Positions 6,497 through 59,532 of a stretch of DNA of 64,000 nucleotides are shown piece after piece (position 1 is the stretch's first letter; each line of letters starts with the position of its first letter). Both the position numbers and the translations under genes were made by a program. The notes below the pieces were generated by a model, which was not told the origin of the DNA, made no database searches, and saw nothing but the letters and a program-made list of their open reading frames with translations. The stretch comes from an uncultured Oscillospiraceae bacterium (GTDB taxonomy: Bacteria; Bacillota; Clostridia; Oscillospirales; Oscillospiraceae): NCBI GenBank assembly GCA_934589145.1, contig CAKTNW010000002.1, positions 1-64,000 on the forward strand, given 5' to 3'.

Positions 6497-6514
6497 GGTT
6501 AGCTACGACTAACC
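6497..6514. promoter_or_regulatory. Operator copy 1 (GTTAG-N6-CTAAC)
   Basis: GGTTAG-N6-CTAACC, exact palindrome with six-base arms. It lies in the leader of the FMN-bind/GLUG gene, 83 bases upstream of copy 2. Confidence 0.7.
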
Positions 6515-6545
6515 ACAAAAGGGGACGCTATTGCCGCCATGTTTT

Positions 6546-6584
6546 CGGCAGCCGCTTTCCACCGGAAGCTGCGCTGCCGTTTTT
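6546..6584 (+). terminator. Terminator hairpin within the leader
   Basis: Outer stem CGGCAG / CTGCCG (6546-6551, 6574-6579), inner stem GCTTTCC / GGAAGC, followed by T5. It sits between the two operators and far upstream of the coding start, so it is an attenuator candidate or ends a short transcript. Confidence 0.65.
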
Positions 6585-6595
6585 ACCCTTACATG

Positions 6596-6611
6596 GTTAG
6601 CAACGACTAAC
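6596..6611. promoter_or_regulatory. Operator copy 2 (GTTAG-N6-CTAAC)
   Basis: Exact GTTAG-N6-CTAAC, 115 bases before the chosen start of the surface protein. Confidence 0.7.
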
Positions 6612-6725
6612 TGGAGCGTACCTGCTCCATCCAGACATTCCGTAAAGGAGGTGACGCCCGCCGTCCCGGCATACCCCCGTATCCCCGTGCAATGTTAAAT
6701 GAAAGAGAAAGGATCATTACCCCAC

Positions 6726-9700
6726 ATGAAGAAAAGACTGCTTTCCGTACTATTGGCCGTGGTCATGGTGCTCTCGCTGCTTCCGACAGCCGCCTTCGCC
6801 ACGACCGTGGACAACACCTATCAACCCGGCACCTACACCGCCTCGGCTCCTGGCCGCGGCGACAAGCCCGTCACCGTAACGCTCACCCTCTCCCAAGAGG
6901 ATGATGCAGTCGTGATCTCTGAGCTGCAGGCTGACGGCAGCACCCAGACGCCCGATTACTGGGCCATGGTCGAGGAGTCCGGCCTGCTGGATCGCATCAA
7001 GGAAGCCAACGGCACCGACGGCGTTGACGTCGTCTCCGGCGCGACCCAGAGCTCCCGCGCTGTCCTGAACGCCGTTGAGCAGGCGCTTATCCAGGCCACC
7101 CCCACACTCTCCGGCTCCGGCACCGCTTCCGATCCCTACCGGATCGTGAATGCCGCGCAGCTGGCCGTCTTTGCTGCCTCTGTTGACGATGGCAGCACCT
7201 ATGCGGGTGAATATGTCGCCCTTGGAGCAAACATCGACCTGTCCGATATTGGCAGTTGGAATCCCATCGGTGTGGAGACCGGCACCACGGCCATCTTTCA
7301 GGGCAACTTTGACGGTCAGGGCTATACCATCAGCGGTCTGACCATCGACGCGGCTGTTACCTCCGGTGAAGGCAACTACGGCCTGTTTTCCGTACTGGGC
7401 AATCAGGCTGTTGTCAAAAACCTGAACGTAGTCAACGCACAGATCTCCGCGATCGGCGCTGACGCGGCGGATAAGATCCGCACGGGTGTGATTGCGGGCT
7501 GTACCGAGAAAGCAGCATCCTCTGGTCACGGAAGCATCGGCACCCGCATTGACAGCTGTTCGGCGACCGGCAGCGTTTCTGCCATCTCCGAGAACGACAA
7601 GATGACTTATGCAGGCGGCATTGCGGGCATGGGTGATGTCGGCACAGCCATCACCAACTGCTGGACGGACGTTGATGTCTCCGCCATCGCAAAGGCTGTA
7701 AGCAACAAGAACAGCATGGCGGGCGGCATCATCGGCAACAGCGGCAACTATGCGGTGGTCGCCAACTGTGCAACTTTCGGTGATGTGTACGCGGCCTCCC
7801 CCAGTTCCACCAACTTCGGCGGTCAGGCGGGCGGCATCGTCGGCATGATGGCCGGCAAGCAATACAATGCCTACGCCACCGGTGACATCACCATCGGCAA
7901 CGGCGGCGTTTCCCATACCTGGGTCGGCGCGCTGGACGGACAGATCACCTCCAGCGGCATGTCCAAGGACGCCGACGGCAATTACACGGTATATCCGGAC
8001 GCAGGCGCTTTCCGCCTGGGCAACTACTATGCCTCGGACGCGGTGCTCAAGGTCGAGGTGTATAAGAACAACGGCGCGGAGCTCGACACGACCAACACGA
8101 TCACTCCGACAGTCGACCGGGGCTATTCGTCTAAACTGAGCTCTGTGGATAAGGCCATGATCTCTGTTGAAATGACCAAGGCCGACATGGTTGGCGCGGC
8201 CTTCGCCGATACCCTCAACGGCAACATCTCCCAGATCAACGGCATTCTGGCGGCCTATGGCATCAGCGGTATTGCGCTGCGCGAGTGGCAGTCCGATGGC
8301 GGCAGGATCCTTCCCACCGGCGCCGTCTGGACCACCGGTGACATCTCCGACTCCATCTTTGCCTCCGGCGACGGCACCGCGGATACGCCCTACCTGATCG
8401 CCACCGAAGAGCAGCTCCGTGACTTTGCCGTTTCGCTCTCCCCCAAGATCGACTACACCGGCAAGTACGTCGCGCTGGCCAATGACATCAGCGTCTCCTC
8501 TGCGGCATGGACGCCCATCGGCGGCAGCGACTACCTCTTCAACGGTACCTTCGACGGCCGCGGCTATACCATCGACGGCCTGACCCTCGGTGCGGAAGGC
8601 GAGCCCTTCGCCCTGGATAAGGAGAATCTCTACATCGGTCTGTTCGGCGTGCTTGGCCCCAAATCCATTGTCAAGAACGTGAACCTGACCAATGTGGCCT
8701 TCTATACAACCTACGCCGCCACCGCCTATCTGGGCGGCATCGCCGGTGTCACCCAGGGCTCCACCACCTCCGGCGACTTCACCGGCGCACTCATCGACGC
8801 CTGCTCCGTCTCCGGTACCCTCTATCTGAACAACACCAAGGGCAACCACTTTGTGGGCGGTCTCGTGGGTATGCAGTATAAGGGCGCTACCATCAACAGC
8901 CGCGTCAGCATCCGCGCCACCGGCATCGTCGACGGCGGCGACCTGGCCGAGGTGGGCGGTCTCGCCGGTCTCAACAACCGCGGTCTCATCGCCAACTGCT
9001 GGACAGACAACGATCTGCTCTACGCCTCCGGCAACCGTGAAAACGGCAACGAGGGCATGGCCGTCGTCAGCAACCTGGTGGCCTGCAACGCCGGTGCGTT
9101 GGTCAACTGCTACGCCTCCGGCGATCTCACCACCCACGAATTCTCCACCTACGCCGGTATGGTCAGCGGCTGGGTCACCGGCATCGGCAAGTCCTACAAC
9201 TGCTGGTACGACCTGGGCAGCACCATGATCAACGGCGCAAGCACCGATAACCCCGTTACCATGAACCCCGTGGCGCCCATCGGCACCAAGGTGGCCTCCG
9301 GCGTCACCGAGGAGGGCGACGTCTACACCGGCGGTCTCGTGGATAAGATGACCGCCTACGACGCGGCCGGTTACGCCGCCATCGCCGACGGCCTCAACGC
9401 CAGCTTCGCCGCGTTCCCCATCGACATCACCGCCTATGGCATCGATTCCACCGCGCTGAAGACCTGGACCTATGATGCCGGGAGCAGCCTCGTCACCTTC
9501 GGCAGCCAGTCGGCCACCGTTACCTACGTCCAGCCCGACTGCGAAAAGGTGGAAAAGCCTGAGCAGGCCATGAAGGACGGCGTCTGGTACGGCCGCGACG
9601 ACGGCAAGACCACCGTGGTGAAGATCACCGTGAAGGACAATGCCGTCACCAAGACCGAGGTTCTCTCCGGTGAAAGCTCTGGCGAGGCCTACGAAGCCGC

Positions 9701-11156
9701 CCTCGCCAAGGCCCAGTATAAGGCCATCTACGGTGACTTCTCCCACTATGAGCAGGCCGATCCCTCCCGCTTCGCCGGCGGCTCCGGCACCGAGAAAGCC
9801 CCCTACCGCATCGCAAACGAGAAGCAGTTGCGCTATCTCGCTCAGTCCATCAACGCCGACGTGGACTGGAGGGGCGTTTACTTCCAGCAGACCGCCAACA
9901 TCAAGCTCACCGGCGGCGACTGGCTGCCCATCGGCTGGTCTCTCAACGGCGAGGTCAACGGCAAGAAGACCCTCGTCTGCGCCTATCCCTTCCGCGGAAA
10001 CTATGACGGCGGCGACTATACCATCACCGGTATGACCATCGGCTCCGCCGAAGCCCCTGCCGACTGCATGACCACCGGCCTCTTCGGCCTGACCTCCGGC
10101 TCTCTCAGCACCAACGACCTGCCCACCGGGAACGATCAGGTCGTCCGCCTGAAGAACATCCACCTGCGCAATATCGACGTGCATGTGGTCACCCGCTATG
10201 AGACCTTCGCCGGCGGCCTTGTGGGCAGCGGCCAGAACGGTATCTACATTGACAACTGCTCTGTTACCGGCGTCATCGACTCCACCACCACCGAGAGCTT
10301 CTGCCGCGTCGGCGGTCTGGCCGCCAGCGTTCTGCGCGGCGCTGTTACCAACTGCTGGACGGACGTGGATGTCTCCGGCGTCACCGACACCAACAATGTC
10401 TACGCCGGTGCGCTCTACGGCATGGATAACCGCGTGACCACCGTCAACTGCTACACCCTGGGCAATGTCACCGGTTTCTCCACCAATCCCAGCAAGGTCT
10501 ATCTGGGCGGCCTCGCCGGTCAGGGCGGCGGCATCCACCTCAACTGCTACTCCGCCGGTGACGTCGTCTCCCGGCAGGTGACCGGTGACGTGGGTATCCT
10601 CAATGGCCGCTCCGCCGGTATCTCCGTCCAGTACAACAGCTACTTCAACACCGACGCTCTCCTGAAGCAGGGCGACACCGTCATCGCGCCCGCCAAGGCG
10701 GTCGGCACCATCACCACCAATGCCGTAGAGACCAATGTTGTGGGCAAGACGGCGGCAGAGCTGAAGAGCAAGGACTTTGCGGCCCAGCTCAACAGCAATA
10801 TCACCGAATCCAACCTCAACGCGGCCATCGACGAGATCCTCAAGTCTCTCGCCGGTCAGGACGGCCGCGGCTATACCCAGCAGAACTATTACGAGGGCAA
10901 CAAACTGCTCTCCTGGACCGTGAAGGACAACACCGTTGTCTTTGGCACCACATCCACTGGCGGTTCTACCGGCGATTCCACCGGCGGCTCTACCAGCGGT
11001 TCCACCGGTGGTTCCACTGGCAGCACCACCGGCAAGGACGTGAAGTCCGGCAACACCGGCGACAGCAGCAATCTCCTGCTGTGGAGCGGCTTGCTGCTGG
11101 CAAGCGCACTTACCCTGTCCGGCGCTGTCCGCTATAAGAGAAAGCGCACGAGATAA
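6726..11156 (+). CDS. Secreted FMN-binding, GLUG-repeat surface protein
   Basis: 1476-residue exported protein. A signal peptide of about 22 residues ends at AAFA. Next is an FMN_bind domain (about residues 28-125) whose SGAT at residues 104-107 is the motif that ApbE-type transferases flavinylate on threonine. Three large modules follow, each opening with a GTxxxPYRI...QLxxxA segment and an FxGxFDGxGYTIxGxTI block and continuing with GLUG-like repeats. Around residues 948-1003 is a second FMN_bind-like domain lacking SGAT. The C-terminus has a Gly/Ser/Thr repeat, one membrane segment and a basic tail, like a wall-anchored protein but without a clear LPxTG. I chose the ATG at 6726 because it starts directly at the signal peptide. 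Electron transfer outside the membrane is inferred. Confidence 0.88.
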   Translation: MKKRLLSVLLAVVMVLSLLPTAAFATTVDNTYQPGTYTASAPGRGDKPVTVTLTLSQEDDAVVISELQADGSTQTPDYWAMVEESGLLDRIKEANGTDGVDVVSGATQSSRAVLNAVEQALIQATPTLSGSGTASDPYRIVNAAQLAVFAASVDDGSTYAGEYVALGANIDLSDIGSWNPIGVETGTTAIFQGNFDGQGYTISGLTIDAAVTSGEGNYGLFSVLGNQAVVKNLNVVNAQISAIGADAADKIRTGVIAGCTEKAASSGHGSIGTRIDSCSATGSVSAISENDKMTYAGGIAGMGDVGTAITNCWTDVDVSAIAKAVSNKNSMAGGIIGNSGNYAVVANCATFGDVYAASPSSTNFGGQAGGIVGMMAGKQYNAYATGDITIGNGGVSHTWVGALDGQITSSGMSKDADGNYTVYPDAGAFRLGNYYASDAVLKVEVYKNNGAELDTTNTITPTVDRGYSSKLSSVDKAMISVEMTKADMVGAAFADTLNGNISQINGILAAYGISGIALREWQSDGGRILPTGAVWTTGDISDSIFASGDGTADTPYLIATEEQLRDFAVSLSPKIDYTGKYVALANDISVSSAAWTPIGGSDYLFNGTFDGRGYTIDGLTLGAEGEPFALDKENLYIGLFGVLGPKSIVKNVNLTNVAFYTTYAATAYLGGIAGVTQGSTTSGDFTGALIDACSVSGTLYLNNTKGNHFVGGLVGMQYKGATINSRVSIRATGIVDGGDLAEVGGLAGLNNRGLIANCWTDNDLLYASGNRENGNEGMAVVSNLVACNAGALVNCYASGDLTTHEFSTYAGMVSGWVTGIGKSYNCWYDLGSTMINGASTDNPVTMNPVAPIGTKVASGVTEEGDVYTGGLVDKMTAYDAAGYAAIADGLNASFAAFPIDITAYGIDSTALKTWTYDAGSSLVTFGSQSATVTYVQPDCEKVEKPEQAMKDGVWYGRDDGKTTVVKITVKDNAVTKTEVLSGESSGEAYEAALAKAQYKAIYGDFSHYEQADPSRFAGGSGTEKAPYRIANEKQLRYLAQSINADVDWRGVYFQQTANIKLTGGDWLPIGWSLNGEVNGKKTLVCAYPFRGNYDGGDYTITGMTIGSAEAPADCMTTGLFGLTSGSLSTNDLPTGNDQVVRLKNIHLRNIDVHVVTRYETFAGGLVGSGQNGIYIDNCSVTGVIDSTTTESFCRVGGLAASVLRGAVTNCWTDVDVSGVTDTNNVYAGALYGMDNRVTTVNCYTLGNVTGFSTNPSKVYLGGLAGQGGGIHLNCYSAGDVVSRQVTGDVGILNGRSAGISVQYNSYFNTDALLKQGDTVIAPAKAVGTITTNAVETNVVGKTAAELKSKDFAAQLNSNITESNLNAAIDEILKSLAGQDGRGYTQQNYYEGNKLLSWTVKDNTVVFGTTSTGGSTGDSTGGSTSGSTGGSTGSTTGKDVKSGNTGDSSNLLLWSGLLLASALTLSGAVRYKRKRTR

Positions 11157-11426: not shown

Positions 11427-11442
11427 GTTAGCGAAGTCTAAC
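11427..11442. promoter_or_regulatory. Operator copy 3 (GTTAG-N6-CTAAC)
   Basis: Exact GTTAG-N6-CTAAC, 52 bases upstream of the membrane protein start. Confidence 0.7.
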
Positions 11443-11493: not shown

Positions 11494-12216
11494 ATGCGGA
11501 CAGAAGAGAAGAAAAGGTTTATCCGGTGGTACGTTCTCGGTGCCATCGGAGGGATATGTATGGCGGCCGGTGATTGGCTGCTGGGGTGTATTCCGATCCA
11601 GGGAACGGACACGGGCATGTTCAACAGAGCCTATTATCTGTCCGGCGCTTATGGCCTGTGGAGACCTGTGCTGATCGTAGGATTGGGCGCGATCGGGGCC
11701 TTTCTCTATTTCTTTATGGTAAAGGCGCTGAACGCGGATATGGACGAAAAGTACCGAAAAGCAAAGACCATCCACAATTTATGCGGCATATTCACTGCTG
11801 CGGTAGCGCTGGCGATCCATCTCTGGTCGGCGACCCTGGCGTGGTTTACCGCGTATCTGGGGCCGCGTATCGGGGCGGAGGCGGCCATCACGGCGGTCAC
11901 TGTCTATCAGGATGATATGCTCACGGCGATCCTCCCGATGTATCTTCCGATGGTGCTGTTTTTCGGGCTCCATTTCGTGATGCTGCTTGCCGGAAAGACC
12001 CGTTATCCCAGGCGGATGCTCATTTTCCACCCGGTCACATGGAACATCCTGCTGGTCATTGTTCCGGACATCGCCCATGCCATGCAGGTGCCCGCCGCCA
12101 CATGGATGTCCGTGATGAGCCAGAGCAGCACCAACAGTGCCATCGTGATCTGGTGCATCGCGGCTGCGGTTTATGAGAGGAAGCGCGTGCAAAGAGAAGG
12201 GATACCGGCGGAATGA
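11494..12216 (+). CDS. Integral membrane protein of unknown function
   Basis: 240-residue protein with about six hydrophobic segments, starting MRTEEKKRFIRWYVLGAIGG. I do not recognise a characterised family; it resembles uncharacterised multi-pass proteins of gut Firmicutes. The start follows AGGAG-ATAAC. It has its own promoter-like sequence and the same operator found upstream of the ECF importer and the hydrolase operon, so it is probably part of the same response. It converges on the MATE gene with only nine bases between stops and no obvious terminator. Confidence 0.8.
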   Translation: MRTEEKKRFIRWYVLGAIGGICMAAGDWLLGCIPIQGTDTGMFNRAYYLSGAYGLWRPVLIVGLGAIGAFLYFFMVKALNADMDEKYRKAKTIHNLCGIFTAAVALAIHLWSATLAWFTAYLGPRIGAEAAITAVTVYQDDMLTAILPMYLPMVLFFGLHFVMLLAGKTRYPRRMLIFHPVTWNILLVIVPDIAHAMQVPAATWMSVMSQSSTNSAIVIWCIAAAVYERKRVQREGIPAE

Positions 12217-47045: not shown

Positions 47046-47187
47046 ATGCTCTCCTCCTGCGTTGCTTTTGTGCGGCAGGCCCAAAATACCTGCCAACATA
47101 AGCTTACCACACACCGGACGCGGAAGCAACGGCGTTTTACACGAAATTCCGCACTGCGTTTTGCCCGTTCGGCCAAACGTGCCGCAA

Positions 47188-47219
47188 GAAAAAACCCCCT
47201 CCGGTCAAGCCGGAGGGGA
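47188..47219 (-). terminator. Intrinsic terminator of the AraC gene
   Basis: CCCCTCCGG / CCGGAGGGG stem overlapping the AraC stop, with A-rich flank giving T6 on the minus strand. Confidence 0.85.
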
Positions 47220-48215: not shown

Positions 48216-48306
48216 GGCGTGGTTCCTTTCTTGTCGTGCGGTGCAGAATCCGTTACCTTTTTGGAGCGAAAATGTCCAATGGGCGGTAGATACCGCGCTT
48301 GGGGCT

Positions 48307-48315
48307 TGCTATAAT
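48307..48315 (+). promoter_or_regulatory. Extended -10 promoter of the ECF operon
   Basis: TG-N-TATAAT with no good -35, followed eight bases later by the operator GTTAG. Absence of a -35 suggests activator dependence, plausibly on the divergent AraC protein. Confidence 0.6.
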
Positions 48316-48320
48316 ATCCA

Positions 48321-48342
48321 TTGGTTAGCATGTACTAACCAA
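48321..48342. promoter_or_regulatory. Operator copy 4 at the ECF promoter
   Basis: The best copy: arms TTGGTTAG and CTAACCAA around a six-base spacer (22 bp in all). It covers the expected transcription start, directly between the -10 element and the ribosome-binding site. Confidence 0.8.
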
Positions 48343-48362: not shown

Positions 48363-48947
48363 ATGAATCAGAAACTTCAGGCAAAAGACCTGATCAACAT
48401 CGGTCTTTTCACCGTGCTTTACTTTGTGCTGGGCTGCTGCGTGGCCATCCCCATCGGCTTTGTGCCCATCTTTCTGCCCATTCTGGGCGCCCTGTGGACG
48501 CTGATCACCGGCATCCCCTTCATGCTGTTCGCCGTCCGCGTCAAGAAGTTCGGCATGGTGACCATCATGGCCATCCTCTCCGGACTGCTGATGGGCCTGA
48601 CCGGCATGGGCTTCTGGGGCGTTCCCATGGGCGTGGTGTTCGGTCTGCTGGGTGATCTCATCATGAAGTCCGGCAATTACGCCAGCGTGAAAAAGACCAT
48701 CCTGGGCTACGGCGTGTTCAGCCTGTGGATGATCGGTACCTACATCCCCATGTACTTCATGGTAGAGCAGTCCCGTGCCGACTTCGCCGCCGGCTTCGGC
48801 GAGGAGTACGCCGACAAGGTCATGTCCGTGATGCCCATGTGGAGCATCGTGCTGGTCATCGCCGGTATCTTCCTGTGCGCGCTGCTGGGCGGCCTGATCG
48901 GCAAGGCACTGCTGAAGAAGCACTTTGCCAAGGCCGGCATCGCCTGA
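48363..48947 (+). CDS. MptD-family ECF transporter substrate-binding (S) component
   Basis: 194-residue membrane protein with about five to six segments, of the Trep_Strep/MptD ECF S-component family (AKDLINIGLFTVLYFVLG start). The S component gives the importer its specificity; ligands of this family are not firmly established. GGAGG precedes the ATG by about seven bases. Its stop overlaps the T-component start (TGATG), and the A component follows, so this is a dedicated group I-like ECF importer rather than one sharing a common energising module. Confidence 0.9.
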   Translation: MNQKLQAKDLINIGLFTVLYFVLGCCVAIPIGFVPIFLPILGALWTLITGIPFMLFAVRVKKFGMVTIMAILSGLLMGLTGMGFWGVPMGVVFGLLGDLIMKSGNYASVKKTILGYGVFSLWMIGTYIPMYFMVEQSRADFAAGFGEEYADKVMSVMPMWSIVLVIAGIFLCALLGGLIGKALLKKHFAKAGIA

Positions 48948-49675
48948 TGGAGGCCCTGACCCATACCGCAAAGCGCCGGGGCCTGCTGCTGGATCCCCGC
49001 ACCAAGCTGCTGATGCTCATTACCGTAACGTCGCTGATGCTGTCGACCGGCAACAGCGGCGTTATGAACATCGTCAAGCCGGTGCTGAGCGTGCTGCCCT
49101 TTATCCTGCTGCTGACGGAGGGGCGGTGGAAAACGGCGCTGAAATACCTGGTACTGTACGCCGTGTGCTTCGCACTGGAGCGGATGGCGCTGTACTGCCT
49201 GTCTGGCCTTCCCGCGTTTTTGCTGCTGGCGGTGTGCGCCATCATGACCCGGTTCGCGCCCGGCATCATGATGGGGGCGTTCCTCATCGCCTCCACCTCG
49301 GTCAGCGATTTCATGGCGGCCATGAAGCGGATGCATGTCTCCGAGAAGATCGTCATTCCTCTGTCGGTGATCTTCCGGTTCTTCCCCACCATCGGCGAGG
49401 AGAACGCCGCCATCTCCGACGCCATGCGGATGCGGGGCATCCGCCTCGGTGGAAGGCACCCCGGCAGGATGGTGGAGTACCGGCTGATCCCGCTGATGAT
49501 CTCGGTGGTGAAGATCGGCGATGAGCTGTCCGCCGCCGCACTGACCCGGGGCTTAGGTGCGCCGGTCAGGCGCACGGATATCTGTAAGATCGGGTTCCAC
49601 TGGCAGGATGCGGTGATGATCCTGATCTGTATCGCGGGCTTTGCCCTGACGTTGGGAAGCAGGTGGCTGGGATGA
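48947..49675 (+). CDS. ECF transporter transmembrane (T) component
   Basis: 242-residue EcfT-type coupling protein. Hydrophobic segments are followed by the two cytoplasmic coupling motifs in the C-terminal half (the region around DAMRMRGIRLGG and ALTRGLGAP, each with the A-R-G type signature). The start overlaps the preceding stop. It links the S component to the ATPase encoded next. Confidence 0.9.
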   Translation: MEALTHTAKRRGLLLDPRTKLLMLITVTSLMLSTGNSGVMNIVKPVLSVLPFILLLTEGRWKTALKYLVLYAVCFALERMALYCLSGLPAFLLLAVCAIMTRFAPGIMMGAFLIASTSVSDFMAAMKRMHVSEKIVIPLSVIFRFFPTIGEENAAISDAMRMRGIRLGGRHPGRMVEYRLIPLMISVVKIGDELSAAALTRGLGAPVRRTDICKIGFHWQDAVMILICIAGFALTLGSRWLG

Positions 49676-51123
49676 TCCGTATGGACCATGTGACATTTAC
49701 CTATCAATCGGACACCGCCGGCGGCGTCCGGGACATCGACCTGACCATCCCAGAGGGGCAGGTGGTGGTGCTGTGCGGCGAGAGCGGCTGCGGCAAGACC
49801 ACCGTGACACGGCTCATCAACGGCCTCATCCCCCACTATTTCGAGGGGAAGCTGTCCGGCAGTGTGCATGTGGACGGCAAAGACGTGGCTCGGCAGCCTC
49901 TGTGGGACACGGCACGGCAGGTGGGCAGTGTGTTCCAGAATCCCCGTTCCCAGTTCTTCAACGTGGACACCACCAGCGAGATCACCTTCGGCTGCGAGAA
50001 TCTGGGAATGCCCCGGGAGGAGATCCTGGGGCGGCTGGAGGGCACCGTGGCGGCGCTGAAGCTGGAAACGCTGCTGGATCGCAGCATCTTCGAGCTGTCC
50101 GGCGGCGAAAAGCAGAAGATCGCCTGCGCCGGGGCCTTTATGATGGAGCCCCAGGTGTTCGTGCTGGACGAGCTGTCCTCCAATCTGGACGCGGACGCCA
50201 TCCTGGATCTGCGGCAGGTCATCGCCTATCTGAAATCGCTGGGCAAGACGGTGGTGCTGTCGGAGCACCGGCTGTACTATTTACAGGGTGTGGCCGACCG
50301 GTACATCTATATGCAGGACGGCAGCATCCACGGCGACTATACGCAGGCGGAGTTTGATTGCATCTCCGACGGGGAGCGGAAGGCCATGGGCCTTCGTGCC
50401 GCCAGTCTCAGCGCCTTGACCGGCAGCGGCAGCACCGGAAGCCATCAGACGGCGGCACTGCGGGACTTCCGTTTTGCCTATAAAAACGCGCCGGAGACGC
50501 TGCATATCGGCGACGCCGACATCCCCTACGGCGGTATTATCGGCATCATCGACCACAATGGGGCAGGGAAGTCCACATTCTCCCGCTGCTTCTGCGGGCT
50601 GGAAAAGCGCTGCGGCACCGTGACGGTGGACGGCCTCGCCTTCCGGCCCAGGGAGCGGCTGAACCGCTGCTATATGGTCATGCAGGACGCAGGGCACCAG
50701 CTTTTTACCGAGAGCGTGCTGGACGAGGTGCTGATCAGCACGCCGGACGAGGACGAAGCCGCCGCAAAGGACATCCTGGCCCGGCTTGACCTGACGCCCT
50801 ATCTGGAGCGCCACCCGGCGTCCCTGTCCGGCGGGCAGAAGCAGCGGCTGGCCATCGCCTCCGCCATGGCGGCGGAACGCGCGGTGGTGTTTCTGGACGA
50901 GCCCACCAGCGGCCTGGATTATCGCCACATGCTGCAGACGGCGCAGCTTCTCAAGGAGCTGCGGCAAAACGGTAAGACCGTCTACGTCATCACCCACGAC
51001 CCGGAGCTGATCTGCCAGTGCTGTACCGATATCCTCCATCTGGAGGCGGGCACCATCGCTGACAGCTATCCCATGGACGACGCGGGCGTGGAGAAGATCC
51101 GCCGTTTCTTCCGCATCGACTGA
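49672..51123 (+). CDS. ECF transporter ATPase, two fused ABC domains
   Basis: 483-residue energising subunit with two complete ABC domains. Domain 1 has Walker A GESGCGKTT, signature LSGGEKQKIA and VLDELSSNLD in place of the usual DEPT. Domain 2 has DHNGAGKST, LSGGQKQRLA and LDEPTSGLD. Fusion of EcfA1 and EcfA2-like halves is common next to MptD-type S components. The ATG overlaps the T-component stop. The operon ends in a terminator. Confidence 0.92.
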   Translation: MIRMDHVTFTYQSDTAGGVRDIDLTIPEGQVVVLCGESGCGKTTVTRLINGLIPHYFEGKLSGSVHVDGKDVARQPLWDTARQVGSVFQNPRSQFFNVDTTSEITFGCENLGMPREEILGRLEGTVAALKLETLLDRSIFELSGGEKQKIACAGAFMMEPQVFVLDELSSNLDADAILDLRQVIAYLKSLGKTVVLSEHRLYYLQGVADRYIYMQDGSIHGDYTQAEFDCISDGERKAMGLRAASLSALTGSGSTGSHQTAALRDFRFAYKNAPETLHIGDADIPYGGIIGIIDHNGAGKSTFSRCFCGLEKRCGTVTVDGLAFRPRERLNRCYMVMQDAGHQLFTESVLDEVLISTPDEDEAAAKDILARLDLTPYLERHPASLSGGQKQRLAIASAMAAERAVVFLDEPTSGLDYRHMLQTAQLLKELRQNGKTVYVITHDPELICQCCTDILHLEAGTIADSYPMDDAGVEKIRRFFRID

Positions 51124-51139
51124 TTGTCATACGTCAAGT

Positions 51140-51165
51140 CCGCTGCCATCCCGGCAGCGGGCTTT
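51140..51165 (+). terminator. Intrinsic terminator of the ECF operon
   Basis: CCGCTGCC / GGCAGCGG (51140-51147, 51153-51160) followed by GCTTTTC. Confidence 0.8.
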
Positions 51166-51191
51166 TCGCAAAAAGGGGAGAGGTTGTGGCG

Positions 51192-51207
51192 GTTAGCAAG
51201 CTCTAAC
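51192..51207. promoter_or_regulatory. Operator copy 5, at an outward (minus-strand) promoter
   Basis: Exact GTTAG-N6-CTAAC, nine bases downstream of the minus-strand -10 at 51222-51217. The controlled transcript would run back across the end of the ECF operon. Confidence 0.7.
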
Positions 51208-51216
51208 TGTGTTCCT

Positions 51217-51245
51217 ATTATAATGATGCGCCGGGCGCTTGTCAA
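51217..51245 (-). promoter_or_regulatory. Perfect-consensus minus-strand promoter without a gene
   Basis: TTGACA (51245-51240), 17-base spacer, TATAAT (51222-51217) on the minus strand. No recognised minus-strand gene follows; the nearest frame is a 27-codon peptide (MAADLTYDNQSMRKK..., 51066-51149) without a ribosome-binding site. Confidence 0.7.
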
Positions 51246-51261
51246 GCTTGCGGATAACCCC

Positions 51262-51290
51262 TTGACATTTCCGGGGACATATGCTACCAT
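51262..51290 (+). promoter_or_regulatory. Promoter of the MATE gene at 51413
   Basis: TTGACA, 17-base spacer, TACCAT. Initiation near 51297 gives a leader of about 117 bases with a terminator hairpin. Confidence 0.7.
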
Positions 51291-51333
51291 ACCGCTTGAT
51301 CGCTCGGAGGGCGAGTCGTTCAGAGAAACGGCA

Positions 51334-51380
51334 GCCGGATAAGGCGCAGGCTGAGATGCCTGTCCTTGTCCGGCTTTTTT
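51334..51380 (+). terminator. Leader terminator of the MATE gene
   Basis: Stem GCCGGATAAGG / CCTTGTCCGGC with an inner CAGGC / GCCTG pair, followed by T6. It lies between promoter and start, 33 bases before the coding region. Two small stem-loops precede it (about 51303-51332). This is attenuator or riboswitch-like architecture; I do not recognise a known class. Confidence 0.7.
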
Positions 51381-51412
51381 GCGTATACCAGGAAAAAGGA
51401 GCGTGAGAACAT

Positions 51413-52732
51413 ATGGATCTTCTCAACGGAAAAATCAGGCCCCTGTACTTCAAATATCTGTCGGCGGCCTTTGGCAGCGCGCTGATCTCCAGCATTTACG
51501 GCATGGTGGACATGGCCATGGTGGGCCAGTATCAGGGTCCCGACGGCACGGCGGCGCTGGCGGTGGTGGCCCCGGTGTGGAATGTCATTTACAGTCTGGG
51601 CTTGCTGACGGGCATCGGCGGCAGCGTGATCTTCAGCGCGCGGCGGGGCAGCAGCACCCGCGGCGACGGCGGCGAGAATCAGTATTTCACCGCCGCGGTG
51701 ATCGGCTCCGTGGCGCTGGCGGTGCTGGCGTGGGTGGGACTGCTGTGCTTTGAGGCGCCGCTGCTGACCTTCTTCGGCGCGGACGAGTCTCTGCTGGCTC
51801 TGGCCCAGCGGTATCTGCGGCCCATCAAGTATGTGTTCCCCATCTTTTTGTTCAACCAGATGCTGGCGGCCTTCCTGCGGAACGACGGCAGCCCCGGCCT
51901 TGCCACGCTGGGCGTGCTGTCCGGCGGCATTTTCAACATGCTGGGCGACTACTTCTTCGTGTTCCCCTGCGACATGGGCATCTACGGCGCAGGGCTGGCC
52001 ACGGCCATCGGCTCGGTGATCTCGCTGCTGGTGCTGCTGTCCCACTTCCCGCGCCGCCGGAACACCCTGCGCCTGGTGCGGGTGGAGCGGCTGCCCCGCA
52101 AGCTGTGGGAGATCACGGTGTCGGGCTTCTCCTCCTTCTTCATCGACGTGGCCATGGGCATCCTGACGGTGCTGTTCAACCGGCAGATCATGCGCTATCT
52201 GGGCGGCGACGCCCTGGCGGTATATGGCCCCATCATCAACGTCAGCACCTTTGTACAGTGCTGCGCGTACAGCGTGGGACAGGCGGCGCAGCCCATCATC
52301 TCCACCAACTACGGCGCGGGGAAGGCCAGCCGCATCCGGGAGACGCTGCGGCTGGCGCTGTATACCACGGCGGCCTTCGCCCTGTTCTGGACGGCCCTCA
52401 GCTTTGCCGCGCCCAATCTGTACATCCGGGTGTTCATGAGCCCCACGGCGGAGATCCTGGCCATCGCCCCGGCCATCATCCGGACGTATGCCCTGTCGTT
52501 CCTGCTGCTGCCCTTCAACATCTTCTCCACCTACTATTTCCAGTCCATCATGCGGCCCAGGGCGGCCTTTATTGTCTCGGTGGCCCGGGGACTGGTCATC
52601 AGCGGCGTGCTGATCCTGCTGCTGCCGGTGGTGACCGGGCCGGATTCCCTGTGGTTCGCCATGCCGGTGACGGAGCTGCTGACGGCGGTCTATACCGCAT
52701 TGGCCATCCAGCGGTACACAAAGGCCCTGTAA
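51413..52732 (+). CDS. MATE-family efflux transporter
   Basis: 439-residue MATE exporter with about twelve membrane segments (start MDLLNGKIRPLYFKYLSAAFGSALISSIYGMVDMAMVGQY). AAGGAG lies about eleven bases before the ATG. It has its own promoter and a leader terminator, and sits between the ECF importer and the hydrolase/methyltransferase operon, so it may export a product or a toxic by-product of that system (inference from position). Confidence 0.9.
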   Translation: MDLLNGKIRPLYFKYLSAAFGSALISSIYGMVDMAMVGQYQGPDGTAALAVVAPVWNVIYSLGLLTGIGGSVIFSARRGSSTRGDGGENQYFTAAVIGSVALAVLAWVGLLCFEAPLLTFFGADESLLALAQRYLRPIKYVFPIFLFNQMLAAFLRNDGSPGLATLGVLSGGIFNMLGDYFFVFPCDMGIYGAGLATAIGSVISLLVLLSHFPRRRNTLRLVRVERLPRKLWEITVSGFSSFFIDVAMGILTVLFNRQIMRYLGGDALAVYGPIINVSTFVQCCAYSVGQAAQPIISTNYGAGKASRIRETLRLALYTTAAFALFWTALSFAAPNLYIRVFMSPTAEILAIAPAIIRTYALSFLLLPFNIFSTYYFQSIMRPRAAFIVSVARGLVISGVLILLLPVVTGPDSLWFAMPVTELLTAVYTALAIQRYTKAL

Positions 52733-52776: not shown

Positions 52777-52805
52777 TTGACAATTTCCGCCGGGGGCATT
52801 ACAAT
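52777..52805 (+). promoter_or_regulatory. Promoter of the MBL/ATC-hydrolase/methyltransferase operon
   Basis: TTGACA, 17-base spacer, TACAAT. The surrounding sequence closely resembles the promoter at 57849-57877 (shared CTTGACAATT and GCATTACAATA). Confidence 0.8.
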
Positions 52806-52815: not shown

Positions 52816-52837
52816 GCGGTTAGATAGCGCTAACCGC
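52816..52837. promoter_or_regulatory. Operator copy 6
   Basis: GCGGTTAG-N6-CTAACCGC, eight-base arms, starting eleven bases after the -10 and so covering the first transcribed bases. Adjacent A/T runs extend the symmetry. Confidence 0.8.
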
Positions 52838-52853: not shown

Positions 52854-52869
52854 GTTAGGCGATGCTAAT
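52854..52869. promoter_or_regulatory. Operator copy 7 (one mismatch)
   Basis: GTTAG-N6-CTAAT, 35 bases downstream of copy 6 (centre to centre) and before the ribosome-binding site. Tandem spacing suggests cooperative binding. Confidence 0.55.
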
Positions 52870-52899: not shown

Positions 52900-53763
52900 A
52901 TGTCCAAGAAAGCGACCGAGTTCCAGAAGAAGGAAATGAGCAAAATGTACCGGGGCAAGGAGATCTTCAAGCCGCTGAACACCGGCTGGATCGACGAAAA
53001 TGTGGCCTGCGTCCGGGAGTGGGTGGCCAATATCTTCTTTTACCGCAAGGGTGATACCACCATCATGATCGACGCGGGGTACAACTATGACCCGCTGGCG
53101 GAGAAGATGGGCTGGCTGGGCATCGACCCGGCGTCCATCCGCCACATCCTGATCACCCACCAGGACACCGACCATGTGGGCGCGGTGGAGGCCGACAGCC
53201 CCGGCCTGTTCCGGAACGCCACGCTGTATGTGGGCGAGACCGAGAACAGGTACCTGACCGGCCAGGTGCGCCGGAAGGTCATCTATCACATGTACAAGCT
53301 GCCCCAGGTGACCATCAACAATAAAAAAGTGCTGCTGCAGGACGGCCAGGTCTTTGACATCGACGGCATCAAGATCGAATGCTTCCTGGTGCCGGGCCAT
53401 ACCTGGGGCCACATGGTCTATCTCATCGACGACAAATACCTCTTCACCGGCGACACCATCTGGTTCGGCGCAGACGGCGGGTACAGCTTTATCTCCGCTC
53501 TGGCGGAGGATAACAAGCTGGCCGTCCGGTCGCTGGCGGCGCTGGAGGAGAAGCTGGAAAAGCGGGGGCTGCACCCGCTGTTCATCACCGGACACACCGG
53601 CTGGACGGACAACTTCGCCTTCGCCTTTGCCCACAAGGAGCAGTGGTGCTCCCCCTTCGGCAAGCGCGTCCACGACCCCAACGCCCCCTACGACGCCTAT
53701 GACGAGACCGACGACACCGAGGCCGGGGCAAAGAGCGGCTATCTGAAGGGTGTGGGCAGATGA
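52900..53763 (+). CDS. Metallo-beta-lactamase-fold hydrolase
   Basis: 287-residue MBL-fold protein with the zinc-site motifs THQDTDH (HxxxDH form), PGHTWGH, GDTIWF and a C-terminal TGHTG histidine. Such proteins hydrolyse thioesters, lactones or other esters. GGGAGG lies about eight bases before the ATG. First gene of a three-gene operon in which each stop overlaps the next start. Substrate unknown; operon partners suggest processing of a thiazoline or amino-acid derived compound. Confidence 0.9.
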   Translation: MSKKATEFQKKEMSKMYRGKEIFKPLNTGWIDENVACVREWVANIFFYRKGDTTIMIDAGYNYDPLAEKMGWLGIDPASIRHILITHQDTDHVGAVEADSPGLFRNATLYVGETENRYLTGQVRRKVIYHMYKLPQVTINNKKVLLQDGQVFDIDGIKIECFLVPGHTWGHMVYLIDDKYLFTGDTIWFGADGGYSFISALAEDNKLAVRSLAALEEKLEKRGLHPLFITGHTGWTDNFAFAFAHKEQWCSPFGKRVHDPNAPYDAYDETDDTEAGAKSGYLKGVGR

Positions 53764-55337: not shown

Positions 55338-57425
55338 TTATTTGTTTTCGTCGGGCAGCAGGTCGGTCATGCTCTTGAGACTGATGCCCAGGGTGGACAT
55401 ATTGTGCAGCAGCGCGGAGGTGGTGGGCGGCAGAATGCCCGCCACGCCCAGCACGATCAGCGAGAAGTTGAAGCCCACGATGAATCGGTAGTTCCGGTGG
55501 ATACGGGCCATCAGCGCCTCGCCCAGCTTCCGCAGCGTCACCAGCTCGAAGAGATCCTCAGAGGCGATGGTGATGTCGGCGATCTCCCGGGCGATGGCCG
55601 CGCCGGTGGAGATGGCGATGCCTGCGTCGGCCTCCGACAGGGCGGGGGAGTCGTTGACGCCGTCGCCCACCATGATGACGGTGTGTCCGGCGGCCTTTTC
55701 CCGGCGGATGAACTCCGCCTTGTCCTCCGGCAGGACTTCCGCGAACACGGCGTCCACGCCTACCTGACGGGCCACGGCCTCGGCGGTCTTGCGGTTGTCG
55801 CCAGTCATCATGACCACCTTGGCGATGCCGCAGTCGTGCAGCGCCTGCACGGCGGCGCGGGCCTCCTTACGCAGGGGATCGAAGATGCAGATGACGGCGG
55901 CCAGCTCTCCGGCGATGCACAGGTACAGATGGGAGTACGCCTCGGGCAGGCTGTCGAATTTCTCCTGCTCGCCCTCCGGCACACGGCAGCCCTCGTCCTC
56001 GAACACGAAGTGGGCGCTGCCGATCAGCACCGAGCGGCCCTCTACCATGCTGGAGATGCCGTGGGCCACCACATACTGCACCTGGGAGTGATACTCCTCG
56101 TGGGACAGGCCACGCACCTTGGCCTCCTCCACCACGGCGTTGGCCATGGAGTGGGGGTAATGCTCCTCCAGACAGGCGGCCAGCCGCAGCATATCCGGCT
56201 CCTTATAGTCGCCGAAGGTGACGATCTGGGCCACCTTGGGGGTGGCGTAGGTGAGGGTGCCGGTCTTGTCGAACACGATGGTGTCGGCCTTGGACACGGC
56301 CTCCAGGAAGCGGCCGCCCTTGACGGAAATGCGGTGGCCGCTGCTCTCCCGCATGGCGGACAGCACCGCAATGGGGATGGCCAGCTTCAGCGCGCAGGAG
56401 AAGTCCACCATCAGCACCGCCAGCGTCTTGGTGATGTTGCGGGTCAGGGCATAGGTCAGCGCCGTGCCGCCCAGGGTGTAGGGCACCAGACGGTCGGCCA
56501 GGCGGGCGGCCTTGTCCTCGGCGGTGGATTTCAGCTTCTCCAACTCCTCGATCATGTGGACGATGCGGTCGTAGCGGCCGCTGCCGGAGGCTTTCTCCAC
56601 CTGAATGACGCACTCGCCCTCCTCGGCCACGGTGCCGGCATACACATAGCTGCCGGGCCGCTTGGGAACGGGCATGGATTCGCCGGTCATGGAGGCCTGG
56701 TTCACCATAGCCTCGCCGGAGATCACCTTGCCGTCCAGGGGGATCATGCTGCCGGTGCGGACGATGACGCAGTCACCGGCCTTCACATCGGAGACGGGAA
56801 CCAGCACCTCGGTGTCGTTCACCTGGAGCCAGACCTTATCCACGTTCAGGCTCATGGCACCGGCCAGATCGGCCACGGACTTCTTGTGGGTCCACTCCTC
56901 CAGGATCTCGCCCAGCCGCAGCATGAACATGACAGAGCTGGCGGTGGAGAAGTCGCCCCGGACGATGGACACCGTTACGGCGGTGGCGTCCAGCACCGCC
57001 ACGGACAGCTTACCGTGCCACAGCGCCTTCAGGCCCTCCTTGATGTACTTCACGGAACGGATCACCGCCAGCGCCGAGGTGATGGGGAGGGGCAGGAACA
57101 GCTTGGAGATGCACCGCCGCACGACGGTCATGACCAGCTTGTCCTCAAACTCCCGGTTCAGGGCGCGGGAGGTGTGCTCCGGCACCAGATCCATGGCCTC
57201 GGCCTTGGGGAAGGAGAAGGATGCCAGGGCGGCGATGACATCGCCGCGCTTTCCGGCATAGAGCACCACGGCGTCCTGGGTACGGTCGTAGACCTTCACC
57301 TCATTTACACCGTCAATGCCGCGCAGATAGTATTCCAGTACGTCCGCCTGGTGCAGCGTCATGTATCCGCAGTGCAGATGTACCCGCAGACGCCCGGCGG
57401 ATTCGTGGAGAATGTTGCATTTCAT
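55338..57425 (-). CDS. P1B-type heavy-metal ATPase with unusual SCA motif
   Basis: 695-residue P-type ATPase. An N-terminal HMA-like domain without CxxC comes first. TGES, the phosphorylation motif DKTGTLT, the HP-type segment EEHYPHSMANAV and MVGDGVNDSPAL are all present. The metal-site segment reads DFSCALKLAIP, with SCA where Cu, Zn and Cd pumps have CPC or a close variant, so the transported metal is uncertain; iron, manganese or haem-type cargo should be considered. It lies 12 bases downstream of a DUF6110-like gene and is likely cotranscribed with it. Confidence 0.88.
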   Translation of the reverse strand: MKCNILHESAGRLRVHLHCGYMTLHQADVLEYYLRGIDGVNEVKVYDRTQDAVVLYAGKRGDVIAALASFSFPKAEAMDLVPEHTSRALNREFEDKLVMTVVRRCISKLFLPLPITSALAVIRSVKYIKEGLKALWHGKLSVAVLDATAVTVSIVRGDFSTASSVMFMLRLGEILEEWTHKKSVADLAGAMSLNVDKVWLQVNDTEVLVPVSDVKAGDCVIVRTGSMIPLDGKVISGEAMVNQASMTGESMPVPKRPGSYVYAGTVAEEGECVIQVEKASGSGRYDRIVHMIEELEKLKSTAEDKAARLADRLVPYTLGGTALTYALTRNITKTLAVLMVDFSCALKLAIPIAVLSAMRESSGHRISVKGGRFLEAVSKADTIVFDKTGTLTYATPKVAQIVTFGDYKEPDMLRLAACLEEHYPHSMANAVVEEAKVRGLSHEEYHSQVQYVVAHGISSMVEGRSVLIGSAHFVFEDEGCRVPEGEQEKFDSLPEAYSHLYLCIAGELAAVICIFDPLRKEARAAVQALHDCGIAKVVMMTGDNRKTAEAVARQVGVDAVFAEVLPEDKAEFIRREKAAGHTVIMVGDGVNDSPALSEADAGIAISTGAAIAREIADITIASEDLFELVTLRKLGEALMARIHRNYRFIVGFNFSLIVLGVAGILPPTTSALLHNMSTLGISLKSMTDLLPDENK

Positions 57426-57707: not shown

Positions 57708-57750
57708 CGTAAATTACCTCCTGATTCCTATAAATAAAAGTTTCGGTAAA

Positions 57751-57796: not shown

Positions 57797-57848
57797 GACT
57801 TTTTCATGAGAAAAGTGACGAAAATGCCCCATTCTGTCCATCGTTTCC

Positions 57849-57877
57849 TTGACAATTCCGAACCTTCGCATTACAAT
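57849..57877 (+). promoter_or_regulatory. Promoter of the BAAT-type hydrolase gene
   Basis: TTGACA, 17-base spacer, TACAAT, near-identical in core and flanks to the promoter at 52777-52805. Confidence 0.8.
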
Positions 57878-57888
57878 AGCAGACGTGA

Positions 57889-57904
57889 GTTAGATATGGC
57901 TAAC
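57889..57904. promoter_or_regulatory. Operator copy 8
   Basis: Exact GTTAG-N6-CTAAC, eleven bases after the -10, overlapping the expected start of transcription. Confidence 0.75.
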
Positions 57905-57968
57905 CATACTGGCAGGCGGCATCGGCGGCGATGCTGCCGCAGCAGAGCTTGCGAAGGGAGGAAGGCAT

Positions 57969-58898
57969 ATGAAACACCTTCATTTTGACATTGACCGGGA
58001 CGGCTTTTACGGCGCATATTGGACGGGCACGGCACAGAGCGACTGCGCCGTGATCGCCATGCTGGGGGACGACCCGGAGGACTATATGGCCCGCTCGGCG
58101 GTGAAATGGCTGCTGAAGCTGGGGGTAAACGTGATGACCATGTCGCCGGGAAAGAAGGACTACGGCCACCACAACTATCCGCTGGAGCGGATCGAAAGCG
58201 CCATCGCCTGGCTGAAGGCCCACGGAAACCGGAAGCTGGGCATTGCCGGCGCGTCCACCACCGGCACGCTGGCCCTGACGGCGGCCTCCTATTTTCCGGA
58301 GCTGACGCTGACCATCGCCATGACGCCCAGCGACTTTGTGTGGCAGGGCTTCATGCAGGGGAAGAAGGACGGCTGCAAGGAGTGGCCCGTCCCCGGTGAA
58401 TCCCTGTTCTCCTATCGCGGTGAGCCCCTGCCCTATATGCCCTTTTGCTATCCCCATCCCCAGTACTGGCAGGTCATTGCCCAGGAGACCAAGCAAGCCG
58501 GAGCGATGCTGGCGTCCCGGAAACTGTTTGACGATTCGGAGGCAGCCCACCCCATCACGGAGGCAGAGACCATCCGGGTGGAGAACATCCAGGGCCATCT
58601 GCTGCTGATCGGCGCGGCGGACGATGTGCTGTGGGATACGGAAAAGTACATCCGCCGCATGGAGCGGCGTCTGGCGGAACGGCCCCACGCCTGCACCGTG
58701 GAGGCCGCCGTGTATGACCATGGCACCCATTTCGTGTTTCCGGAGGGGATGCTGAAAACCATGCTGCCGGTGGGCGCCGACCTGTTCGTAAAGCTGGCCT
58801 TCCGCGAGGCCAGGGTATTTCCCCGGGAATGCAAGGCGACCCGCCTGGATATCCAGCGCCGGGTGGTCAAGGCCCTTGCGGACTGGCAGAAGAAATAA
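57969..58898 (+). CDS. Acyl-CoA thioester hydrolase/BAAT C-terminal-type alpha/beta hydrolase
   Basis: 309-residue alpha/beta hydrolase resembling the C-terminal domain of bile acid-CoA:amino acid N-acyltransferases and acyl-CoA thioesterases. The nucleophile elbow is GASTTG at about residues 93-98; the acid is probably in LIGAADDVLWD and the base in DHGTHFVFP. GGGAGG lies eight bases before the ATG. Promoter and operator match those of the MBL operon, so the same regulator should control both. The substrate, a thioester, ester or amide, is unknown. Confidence 0.85.
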   Translation: MKHLHFDIDRDGFYGAYWTGTAQSDCAVIAMLGDDPEDYMARSAVKWLLKLGVNVMTMSPGKKDYGHHNYPLERIESAIAWLKAHGNRKLGIAGASTTGTLALTAASYFPELTLTIAMTPSDFVWQGFMQGKKDGCKEWPVPGESLFSYRGEPLPYMPFCYPHPQYWQVIAQETKQAGAMLASRKLFDDSEAAHPITEAETIRVENIQGHLLLIGAADDVLWDTEKYIRRMERRLAERPHACTVEAAVYDHGTHFVFPEGMLKTMLPVGADLFVKLAFREARVFPRECKATRLDIQRRVVKALADWQKK

Positions 58899-58900
58899 AG

Positions 58901-58930
58901 AATACGGGAAGCGGCAGCTTCCCGTATTTT
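58901..58930. terminator. Bidirectional intrinsic terminator
   Basis: AATACGGGAAGC / GCTTCCCGTATT (58901-58912, 58917-58928) with loop GGCA, ending in T4, between convergent genes. Confidence 0.9.
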
Positions 58931-58932
58931 CA

Positions 58933-59241
58933 TCAGCAGGCGTCCTTGGCGTCCTCCGGCCAGTCGAAGGACATCCAGTCGGACACATAGTCCTTGACCT
59001 CCTCGATCCAGTCCAGATGCTTGGGGTGGCGGAAGAAGTCGTTCAACTGCTCCGGCGCGTCAATGTGCATGCGGATCATGATATCCGCGTTGGAGTCCCT
59101 TGCGGTGGCGCACCGGCTCACCTCTGCGTCGTGCAGGAAGGGAAGCTCCCATTCCAAATCCGCGTACACCTTGCGGCAATGGAAATAAAGGAGGGTCACG
59201 TCCGCGTCTTTCTTCAGCTTCAACAGAATATAATGTACCAT
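58933..59241 (-). CDS. Dabb-family (stress-responsive A/B barrel) protein
   Basis: 102-residue single-domain protein with the Dabb start MVHYILLKLKKDAD and the conserved late segment HPKHLDWIEEV. Dabb proteins are dimeric alpha/beta barrels, sometimes oxygenases or cyclases and often of unknown role. GGAGG lies shortly before the start. It converges on the BAAT-type hydrolase gene; operon partners are absent. Confidence 0.88.
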   Translation of the reverse strand: MVHYILLKLKKDADVTLLYFHCRKVYADLEWELPFLHDAEVSRCATARDSNADIMIRMHIDAPEQLNDFFRHPKHLDWIEEVKDYVSDWMSFDWPEDAKDAC

Positions 59242-59481
59242 TCAAAAGACCTCCTTCAAAAATAATAAAAGAAGATACCGCAAAATGTGTCGGTTGTCAA
59301 GTGCTTTTTCGGCGTTTTATACATATTGAATATATGCAATTTGTGCAAAAGATTCAAAAAATTGAGAAAACGGCGCTTTCATCCGGGAAAGTGCGAAAGA
59401 AATATGTTTATTTTTTCACAAAAAATTTCTTGAAAAGGGAAGTAAGTTTAAAGCGAATTTCCGTTCTTTGCTGCATCCACA

Positions 59482-59510
59482 TTGCAAACCTCAGAGACAA
59501 GCGCTATAAC
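59482..59510 (+). promoter_or_regulatory. Orphan promoter upstream of no known gene
   Basis: TTGCAA, 17-base spacer, TATAAC on the plus strand, followed six bases later by operator copy 9. Confidence 0.65.
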
Positions 59511-59516
59511 AGAGCG

Positions 59517-59532
59517 GTTAGCGACAACTAGC
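59517..59532. promoter_or_regulatory. Operator copy 9 (one mismatch)
   Basis: GTTAG-N6-CTAGC at the expected start of the orphan transcript. Confidence 0.6.

Follow-up and report, generated by a model that had tools for sequence, protein, structure and literature searches.

Recurrent GTTAG-N6-CTAAC palindromes in an uncultured Oscillospiraceae bacterium are probable operators of a DtxR-family, iron-sensing repressor

The first 64,000 nucleotides of contig CAKTNW010000002.1, from an uncultured Oscillospiraceae bacterium (assembly GCA_934589145.1, forward strand; hereafter “the window”), contain nine copies of the palindrome GTTAG-N6-CTAAC. We consider it very likely that these are operators of a short, two-domain metalloregulator of the DtxR family, most likely one that senses Fe(II). 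The palindrome is most likely the site of an iron-sensing repressor, since both gut Clostridia and spirochaetes have it ahead of genes for iron uptake. Position, spacing, conservation and company mark the sites as operators of such a DtxR-family repressor, and we infer the window's regulator, its metal and its action by repression. We conclude on these grounds that the window holds part of an iron regulon, whose putative members are a flavinylated surface protein, an energy-coupling factor (ECF) importer, an operon for a metallo-beta-lactamase (MBL) protein, an ATC_hydrolase protein and a methyltransferase, a BAAT hydrolase and a DUF6796 protein. A sequence-only reading of the window had proposed that a single metal-dependent repressor co-controls such a set of operons. 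The targets found in relatives support that proposal, but its argument from spacing, and its assignments of the sites at 51192 and 59517, had to be corrected.

Results

The exact pattern GTTAGNNNNNNCTAAC matches the window seven times (starts 6498, 6596, 11427, 48324, 51192, 52819 and 57889), compared with a mean of 0.01 matches across 100 dinucleotide shuffles, none of which reached seven copies. Two further copies, at 52854 and 59517, have one mismatch and bring the total to nine. The pattern count thus bears out the seven exact and two imperfect copies seen in the sequence-only reading, which placed the sites at 6596, 11427, 51192, 57889, 52854 and 59517 correctly but gave three others one base too low (6497, 48323 and 52818). 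With two mismatches permitted there are 11 matches in the window against 9.35 expected; hence, only sites with no mismatch or one are meaningful. The spacing is fixed. Six bases is the sole spacing seen for GTTAG-Nk-CTAAC with k from 0 to 39, and the shorter TTAG-Nk-CTAA occurs eight times at k = 6, once at k = 27 and at no other k from 0 to 30, such that, of 23 occurrences of TTAG in the window, eight are partnered by CTAA at exactly six bases. Conservation is limited to the arms and a single flanking base at either side, and the spacer is variable except for a preference for A at its third base. All nine operators lie outside predicted genes, in a window of 60% GC of which 13.1% is intergenic according to our own gene prediction, a codon-based selection.

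A promoter scan placed five of the nine operators 6–13 bases past a -10 hexamer, the position of a repressor site, as had been noticed earlier. Four of these are on the plus strand. The exact operator at 48324..48339 begins 8 bases past the -10 of the ECF operon promoter, TAGATA-17-TATAAT (48287..48315). Those at 52819..52834 and 57889..57904, both exact, begin 13 and 11 bases past TTGACA-17-TACAAT promoters at 52777..52805 (MBL operon) and 57849..57877 (ahead of the BAAT hydrolase gene), each of which matches 11 of 12 sigma-70 positions. The one-mismatch operator at 59517..59532 begins 6 bases past TATAAC in TTGCAA-17-TATAAC. The fifth, an exact operator on the minus strand at 51192..51207, begins 9 bases past the -10 of a TTGACA-17-TATAAT promoter that matches at 12 of 12 positions (51217..51245, minus strand). 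For the remaining four, all on the plus strand, the scan gave less. It found no promoter match for the exact operators at 6596..6611 and 11427..11442, a weak 8/12 match with a gap of 1 for the exact operator at 6498..6513, and, for the one-mismatch operator at 52854..52869, which lies 48 bases past the hexamer ending at 52805, a 9/12 minus-strand match at a gap of 9.

The same operator recurs ahead of related ECF genes in spirochaetes. The entry point was a Spirochaetales metagenome-assembled genome (G001) matched by the window's ECF ATPase at 51% identity; the ATPase scan gave five loci, of which one (L001) was useful, and the other four (Martelella, Nocardia) contain no TTAG-N6-CTAA. A search of 392 Spirochaetota genomes for the Trep_Strep family of S components found 32 above the family cut-off. 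In nine genomes the best S component scored at least 208 bits, and in seven of these (G335, G314, G206, G240, G294, G291 and G091) two exact sites lie directly upstream. All 14 sites ahead of the S component gene (L050–L056) have the full GTTAG-N6-CTAAC form, and counts of the exact motif across the seven genomes are 14–37, compared with 0–3 for the reversed pattern.

Beyond the ECF operon, the spirochaete sites mark out an iron island. Fourteen of the 16 sites in G240 fall inside one 42-kb stretch, ahead of an ECF-HMA-FeoB set, other Trep_Strep ECF and ATP-binding cassette (ABC) pairs, a flavodoxin gene (followed by a DUF3793-like gene), ATC_hydrolase, a MATE gene and a xylose-isomerase-like gene (below the Pfam cut-off); the two outlying sites are ahead of a short-chain dehydrogenase gene and between ApbE and a lipoprotein-like gene. 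The window and G240 have in common ATC_hydrolase, an ECF system and a flavinylation theme (ApbE in G240, FMN_bind in the window). Three operators lie ~0.5 kb ahead of a FeoB gene in each of G206, G314 and G379, and a DtxR-family gene follows this FeoB gene, in a gene listing that left out small genes such as feoA (70–90-residue cut). Two operators in G289 are directly ahead of a DtxR-family gene, and among the stretches around six regulator genes exact sites occur in G281, G289 and G379. The islands in G240 (C1, 949–997 kb; L100–L102) and G206 (C12, 32–86 kb; L105–L107) contain several Trep_Strep ECF systems, and also phosphoglycerate mutase-, enolase- and xylose-isomerase-like genes (by reading) near operators.

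Among 383 Spirochaetota genomes scanned, 218 have at least one motif. Fourteen of the 383 have a regulator at least 64% identical to that of G206, and these contain 3–37 sites compared with 0–3 in controls (G206 37, G291 37, G314 36, G091 20, G294 17, G240 16, G335 14, G322 13, G379 10, G281 9, G308 9, G255 9, G304 7 and G289 3). Seven of the eight genomes with at least 14 sites have a regulator of the G206 type; the eighth, G014, does not, but has another PF01325 gene.

Comparisons in the Clostridia and other groups used records labelled as plasmids. All three sites in 286 kb of Monoglobus pectinilyticus are upstream of feoA-feoA-feoB. The single site in 305 kb of a Subdoligranulum record (OY725868), also from the Oscillospiraceae, immediately precedes feoA (by reading) and feoB, and sits behind TTGACA-17-TATTCT (by eye) in a stretch with the window's GC content of 60%. 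Four of the seven sites in 243 kb of Roseburia 831b are intergenic, one ahead of feoA, one ahead of DUF3793-flavodoxin and two elsewhere. Both sites in OY725880 are beside a flavodoxin gene assigned by Pfam, together with DUF3793-like and MATE-like genes recognised by eye; a DtxR homologue lies ~4 kb away. One of two sites in OY725878 lies between TetR-like and ABC-like genes (by eye), behind a DtxR homologue; OY725857 has three sites, and Lachnospira eligens has one, upstream of an ABC gene. In Collinsella (Actinomycetota) a one-mismatch site lies 60 bases ahead of feoB. No exact site was found in the records of Pusillibacter, Vescimonas, Collinsella, R. albus, Butyrivibrio, Agathobacter or OY725836. 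In Anaerococcus prevotii (Tissierellia), the one site in the 116-kb plasmid pAPRE01 is directly behind a DtxR-family gene and ahead of a non-ribosomal peptide synthetase operon. The order of regulator, operator and synthetase operon on this plasmid, which is typed as conjugative, marks a candidate siderophore locus (L168:3983-8333). DUF3793 beside flavodoxin near an operator was seen (L153, L124, L126) in an AT-rich spirochaete, in Roseburia and apparently in Subdoligranulum.

The regulators linked to the site are short. Those of the island genomes have 124–137 residues (called from the first start codon), and those of G240, G289 and Anaerococcus consist of Fe_dep_repress (PF01325) and Fe_dep_repr_C (PF02742). 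Because these two domains cover their 123–136 residues, there is no room for a third, SH3-like domain, and the C-terminal SH3-like domain of IdeR proper was not found in these three regulators. MntR and DtxR are the closest sequences in the PDB to the spirochaete regulator. A PF01325 match is present in all eight and all 12 of the motif-bearing spirochaete genomes tested in two sets, and is the only one in each of G314, G206, G240 and G294. Seven island orthologues have the sequences EMYLE and DACKIEH, placing Met and Cys at the metal-selectivity positions, where, according to PMC10317159, they raise selectivity for Fe(II) in DtxR/IdeR. G335 has a second regulator copy, of the EDYLE type. An AlphaFold model of the G206 regulator made with no alignment was poor (mean predicted local distance difference test score 62.5) and was not used.

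In the window, the operators at 6498 and 6596 form a pair ahead of a gene for a 1485-residue protein (6699..11156, plus strand) with FMN_bind (PF04205) and a GLUG motif, and, by eye, a signal and a C-terminal membrane segment; its SGATQSS is presumably the site of covalent flavin attachment. The operator at 11427 precedes a gene for a hydrophobic DUF6796 protein of 240 residues, by eye a membrane protein (11494..12216, plus strand). The ECF operon behind 48324, also on the plus strand, encodes an S component (48363..48947) of the Trep_Strep/MptD family (PF09605, TIGR02185; scores of 208.3 bits against a cut-off of 28.7, and 144.7 against 76.45), a CbiQ-like T component (PF02361; 48947..49675, with its start codon inferred within the open reading frame (ORF) 48725-49675) and a double ATPase (49663..51123). 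The S component has many ~90% identical relatives in metagenome-derived data. The operators at 52819 and 52854 precede a plus-strand operon for an MBL-fold hydrolase (52900..53763), an ATC_hydrolase family protein (PF14196; 53760..54461) and an LCM-type methyltransferase (PF04072; 54458..55288), and that at 57889 precedes a gene for a BAAT_C alpha/beta hydrolase (57969..58898, plus strand).

Other searches with window sequences yielded little. No relative of the S component or MBL protein was found in viral contigs, no PDB sequence matched the BAAT or methyltransferase protein, and no Rfam family was found in the window. In the plasmid collection, the BAAT and MBL proteins had weak matches only, and nothing matched the ATC protein. 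The window's DUF362 protein is 66% identical to a Subdoligranulum record, and matches to its DUF4317 protein are mainly in Bacillota. Between two operator-controlled operons, a heavy-metal P-type ATPase gene (55338-57425) with an upstream 89-residue frame (region to 57707) is on the minus strand. The intergenic region that holds the 57889 operator also borders this ATPase locus, whose own promoter-like match ends ~95 bases from that operator. A 1232-residue frame with a weak coding signal (43431-47129, minus strand) adjoins an AraC gene.

Two operators appear to control transcripts with no long gene. Given the 12/12 minus-strand promoter at 51245-51217, the operator at 51192 serves a transcript that runs away from the MATE gene (51413), in the direction of the ECF ATPase gene's end. 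No long frame, and no obvious protein gene, lies near the start of this transcript. The transcript is possibly a regulatory or small RNA. RNA from 51110-51250 on the minus strand would be antisense to the 3ʹ end of the ECF ATPase gene, and its CCUCUCCCC stretch is unpaired in most of the lengths folded. Likewise, the operator at 59517 drives a predicted transcript that contains a 28-residue frame only, not a long ORF, and is read in the direction of a pseudouridine synthase gene's 3ʹ end (59517-59660). The MATE gene leader (51297-51413) folds into strong hairpins, and a U run comes behind one of them (-53.7 kcal/mol); the leader is attenuator- or riboswitch-like; no credible Rfam family was found in it, and three sub-threshold hits at 51000-51450 look like chance.

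Discussion

How might the operators work? We propose that, in ample iron, one dimer binds each GTTAG-N6-CTAAC where transcription starts or just past that point and so keeps RNA polymerase out, with paired operators accommodating two dimers. As iron falls, the repressor would lose its metal and the operons would open. We infer a role for each window operon under iron starvation. The Trep_Strep ECF importer would take up haem or an iron chelate, and the flavinylated surface protein would serve extracellular electron transfer or the reduction of ferric iron or haem. More speculatively, the MBL/ATC-hydrolase/methyltransferase operon and the BAAT hydrolase could process imported chelates. Low iron would also release the DUF6796 protein and possibly a small RNA from 51192. 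A bolder and rather doubtful extension is that gut Clostridia, along with a set of spirochaetes, have in GTTAG-N6-CTAAC, a single-dimer DtxR operator, their general iron box. It would govern a programme for iron starvation, so far undescribed, of extracellular iron or haem reduction by the flavinylated surface protein, import by the Trep_Strep ECF transporter, carrier breakdown by the MBL/ATC-hydrolase/methyltransferase proteins, and an iron-repressed small RNA from 51192 that uses CCUCUCCCC to silence iron-rich proteins.

Several observations weigh against operators of an iron-sensing DtxR-family protein. The window's own regulator was not seen in its 64 kb. Three of the seven Roseburia 831b sites are within coding sequence, as are several sites beyond the islands in G206, G314, G335 and G291, and the Pusillibacter and Vescimonas megaplasmids have a DtxR homologue and no site. 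No exact site was found within the 11–14 kb examined around the regulators of G322, G304 and G324, and G224, whose regulator is the next by identity (62%), has no site at all. Conversely, G133, G088, G128, G138 and G044 have 5–9 sites (control 0) and no G206-type regulator at E ≤ 1e-15; each has one PF01325 match. Of six stretches examined from G133 and G088 (GC 0.26–0.29), only one has a recognised iron-type target, a DUF3793-flavodoxin pair with two sites ahead of it. In G174 there is one site near the S component gene, and the genome count equals that of the reversed control (3 each). Only 3 of 12 lower-scoring Trep_Strep loci (L057–L068) have TTAG-N6-CTAA. G001 has no GTTAG-form site, and its three TTAGGN4CCTAA sites in 3.3 Mb compare with six in the reversed control; two of these three are ahead of feoA-feoA-feoB (by reading) and at the start of an ABC-ABC-S-T-A operon.

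A further difficulty concerns the metal. The aligned clostridial homologues have Asp (Asn in L. eligens) at the Met10 position together with Cys, and not the Met and Cys of the island regulators. An Asp/Cys site is described for Porphyromonas gingivalis MntR, which binds Mn (PMC4805248); the metal in the Clostridia therefore rests on the targets. A Mn(II)-sensing MntR that controls operons for manganese homeostasis, an explanation that overlaps ours and differs in the metal alone, would also account for a regulator of ~125 residues whose best PDB hits are those of an MntR, and for the putative manganese exporter gene (Mntp) that adjoins a site in G240. We consider it unlikely, however, since relatives have feoAB, flavodoxin and ECF/ABC systems as targets, and since seven island regulators have both of the sulfur ligands for Fe(II) selectivity, Met and Cys. 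These targets in relatives (feoAB, flavodoxin and ECF) identify the metal as iron with fair confidence.

A repressor of the Fur family is a much poorer candidate. Although the site-bearing feoAAB operon of Roseburia 831b contains a FUR-family gene (PF01475), the window has no Fur-box-like sequence (best match 6/19 mismatches), and the regulator linked to the site is of the DtxR type in G206, G314, G379, G289 and Anaerococcus, making Fur very improbable. Less probable still is a local regulator of another family, such as a TetR protein or the product of the AraC genes at 47205 or 5418. AraC-type genes do lie beside the ECF operon and upstream of 6498/6596, and the spirochaete islands also contain an AraC gene, assigned by Pfam, and a gene that by eye is TetR-like, but the sites recur ahead of feoAB in Monoglobus with no such gene among 14 annotated neighbours, and AraC proteins normally bind asymmetric repeats. 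That the palindromes are no operators but dispersed repeats, RNA hairpins or terminators has next to no likelihood: the arms at 52819 are extended by AAAAGCG/CGCTTTT, and terminator scores were obtained for 52819 on the minus strand and for 51192 on the plus strand, but the other four of six sites within the scanned region (which left out 6498, 6596 and 11427) have no score, and arms and single flanking bases are conserved while the spacer varies, its third-base A preference aside.

For many abundant gut Clostridia, the iron regulator is to our knowledge poorly characterised. With the fixed and easily read operator of a probable DtxR-family iron repressor, any genome of these bacteria could be scanned for iron genes. 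The operator also points to candidate families, of unknown role so far, for iron starvation: DUF6796, ATC_hydrolase with MBL and LCM proteins, BAAT-type hydrolases, DUF3793 and flavinylated surface proteins. Five spellings of the motif retrieved PMC8464063 alone from the full-text literature. Searches that paired DtxR with flavodoxin, FeoB and Treponema, with ECF, gut and comparative genomics, with ECF, haem and Clostridia, and with Clostridia and FeoB gave no title or abstract describing this regulon; subscription papers and databases such as RegPrecise were outside these searches, and an earlier description is possible.

The closest known parallel is the DtxR/IdeR iron box (TTAGGTTAGSCTAACCTAA; single-dimer half site TTAGGNNNNCCTAA). 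The sequence-only reading had set the palindrome apart from iron boxes on the ground that these have about one base between their arms. This was mistaken: PMC8464063 describes the 19-bp IdeR box as a pair of overlapping TTAG-N6-CTAA sites, each for one dimer. The window's operators have the spacing of a single-dimer IdeR site, which argues for a one-dimer operator of the DtxR type. The likeness extends beyond CTAA half sites at one-dimer spacing to the overlap with the transcription start and the iron genes downstream in the window's relatives. In contrast to the iron box, the window operator holds one dimer site only. The full 19-bp, two-dimer box is absent from the window (best match 5/19 mismatches); hence, the sites are not classical IdeR boxes. 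Each repeat retains C2-T3-A4-A5 and adds a conserved outer C (G in the opposite arm), and the fifth base, C1 of CCTAA, is free. For S. erythraea IdeR, PMC8464063 reports a C1-to-T1 change to be without significant effect. We considered loss of Gln43 as an explanation for the free base: the recognition helices of the relatives lack Gln43, but this proves nothing because the Q43A substitution leaves IdeR binding unchanged (PMC8464063). The IdeR literature, as represented by PMC10317159, leaves open whether other species, too, make use of single-dimer half sites; on the present evidence, such sites appear to be the main operator in the Bacillota and Spirochaetota.

An ECF operon of the same kind on a Corynebacterium plasmid is preceded by TTAGGTAAGCCTTACCTTT, with four mismatches to the DtxR 19-mer. 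Neither TTAG-N6-CTAA nor any 19-mer like that of DtxR was present in a stretch of a Salmonella plasmid whose S component is 32% identical. Two further systems resemble the window's in gene set. MtsR of Streptococcus pyogenes is a member of the DtxR family. Its regulon, as described in PMC6593403, includes siaF, siaG and siaH, an ECF S-T-A set like that of the window, and the repressor depends on iron and manganese. LhaSTA of Staphylococcus lugdunensis, an iron-repressed ECF operon that imports haem, shares the S-T-A layout and differs in having a fur box (PMC7299338). Finally, the regulator in the window's relatives has the length and two-domain make-up of BsMntR and other short DtxR-family repressors, and differs from BsMntR in its Cys at the metal-selectivity position, accompanied by Met in the island regulators, and in its iron-type targets.

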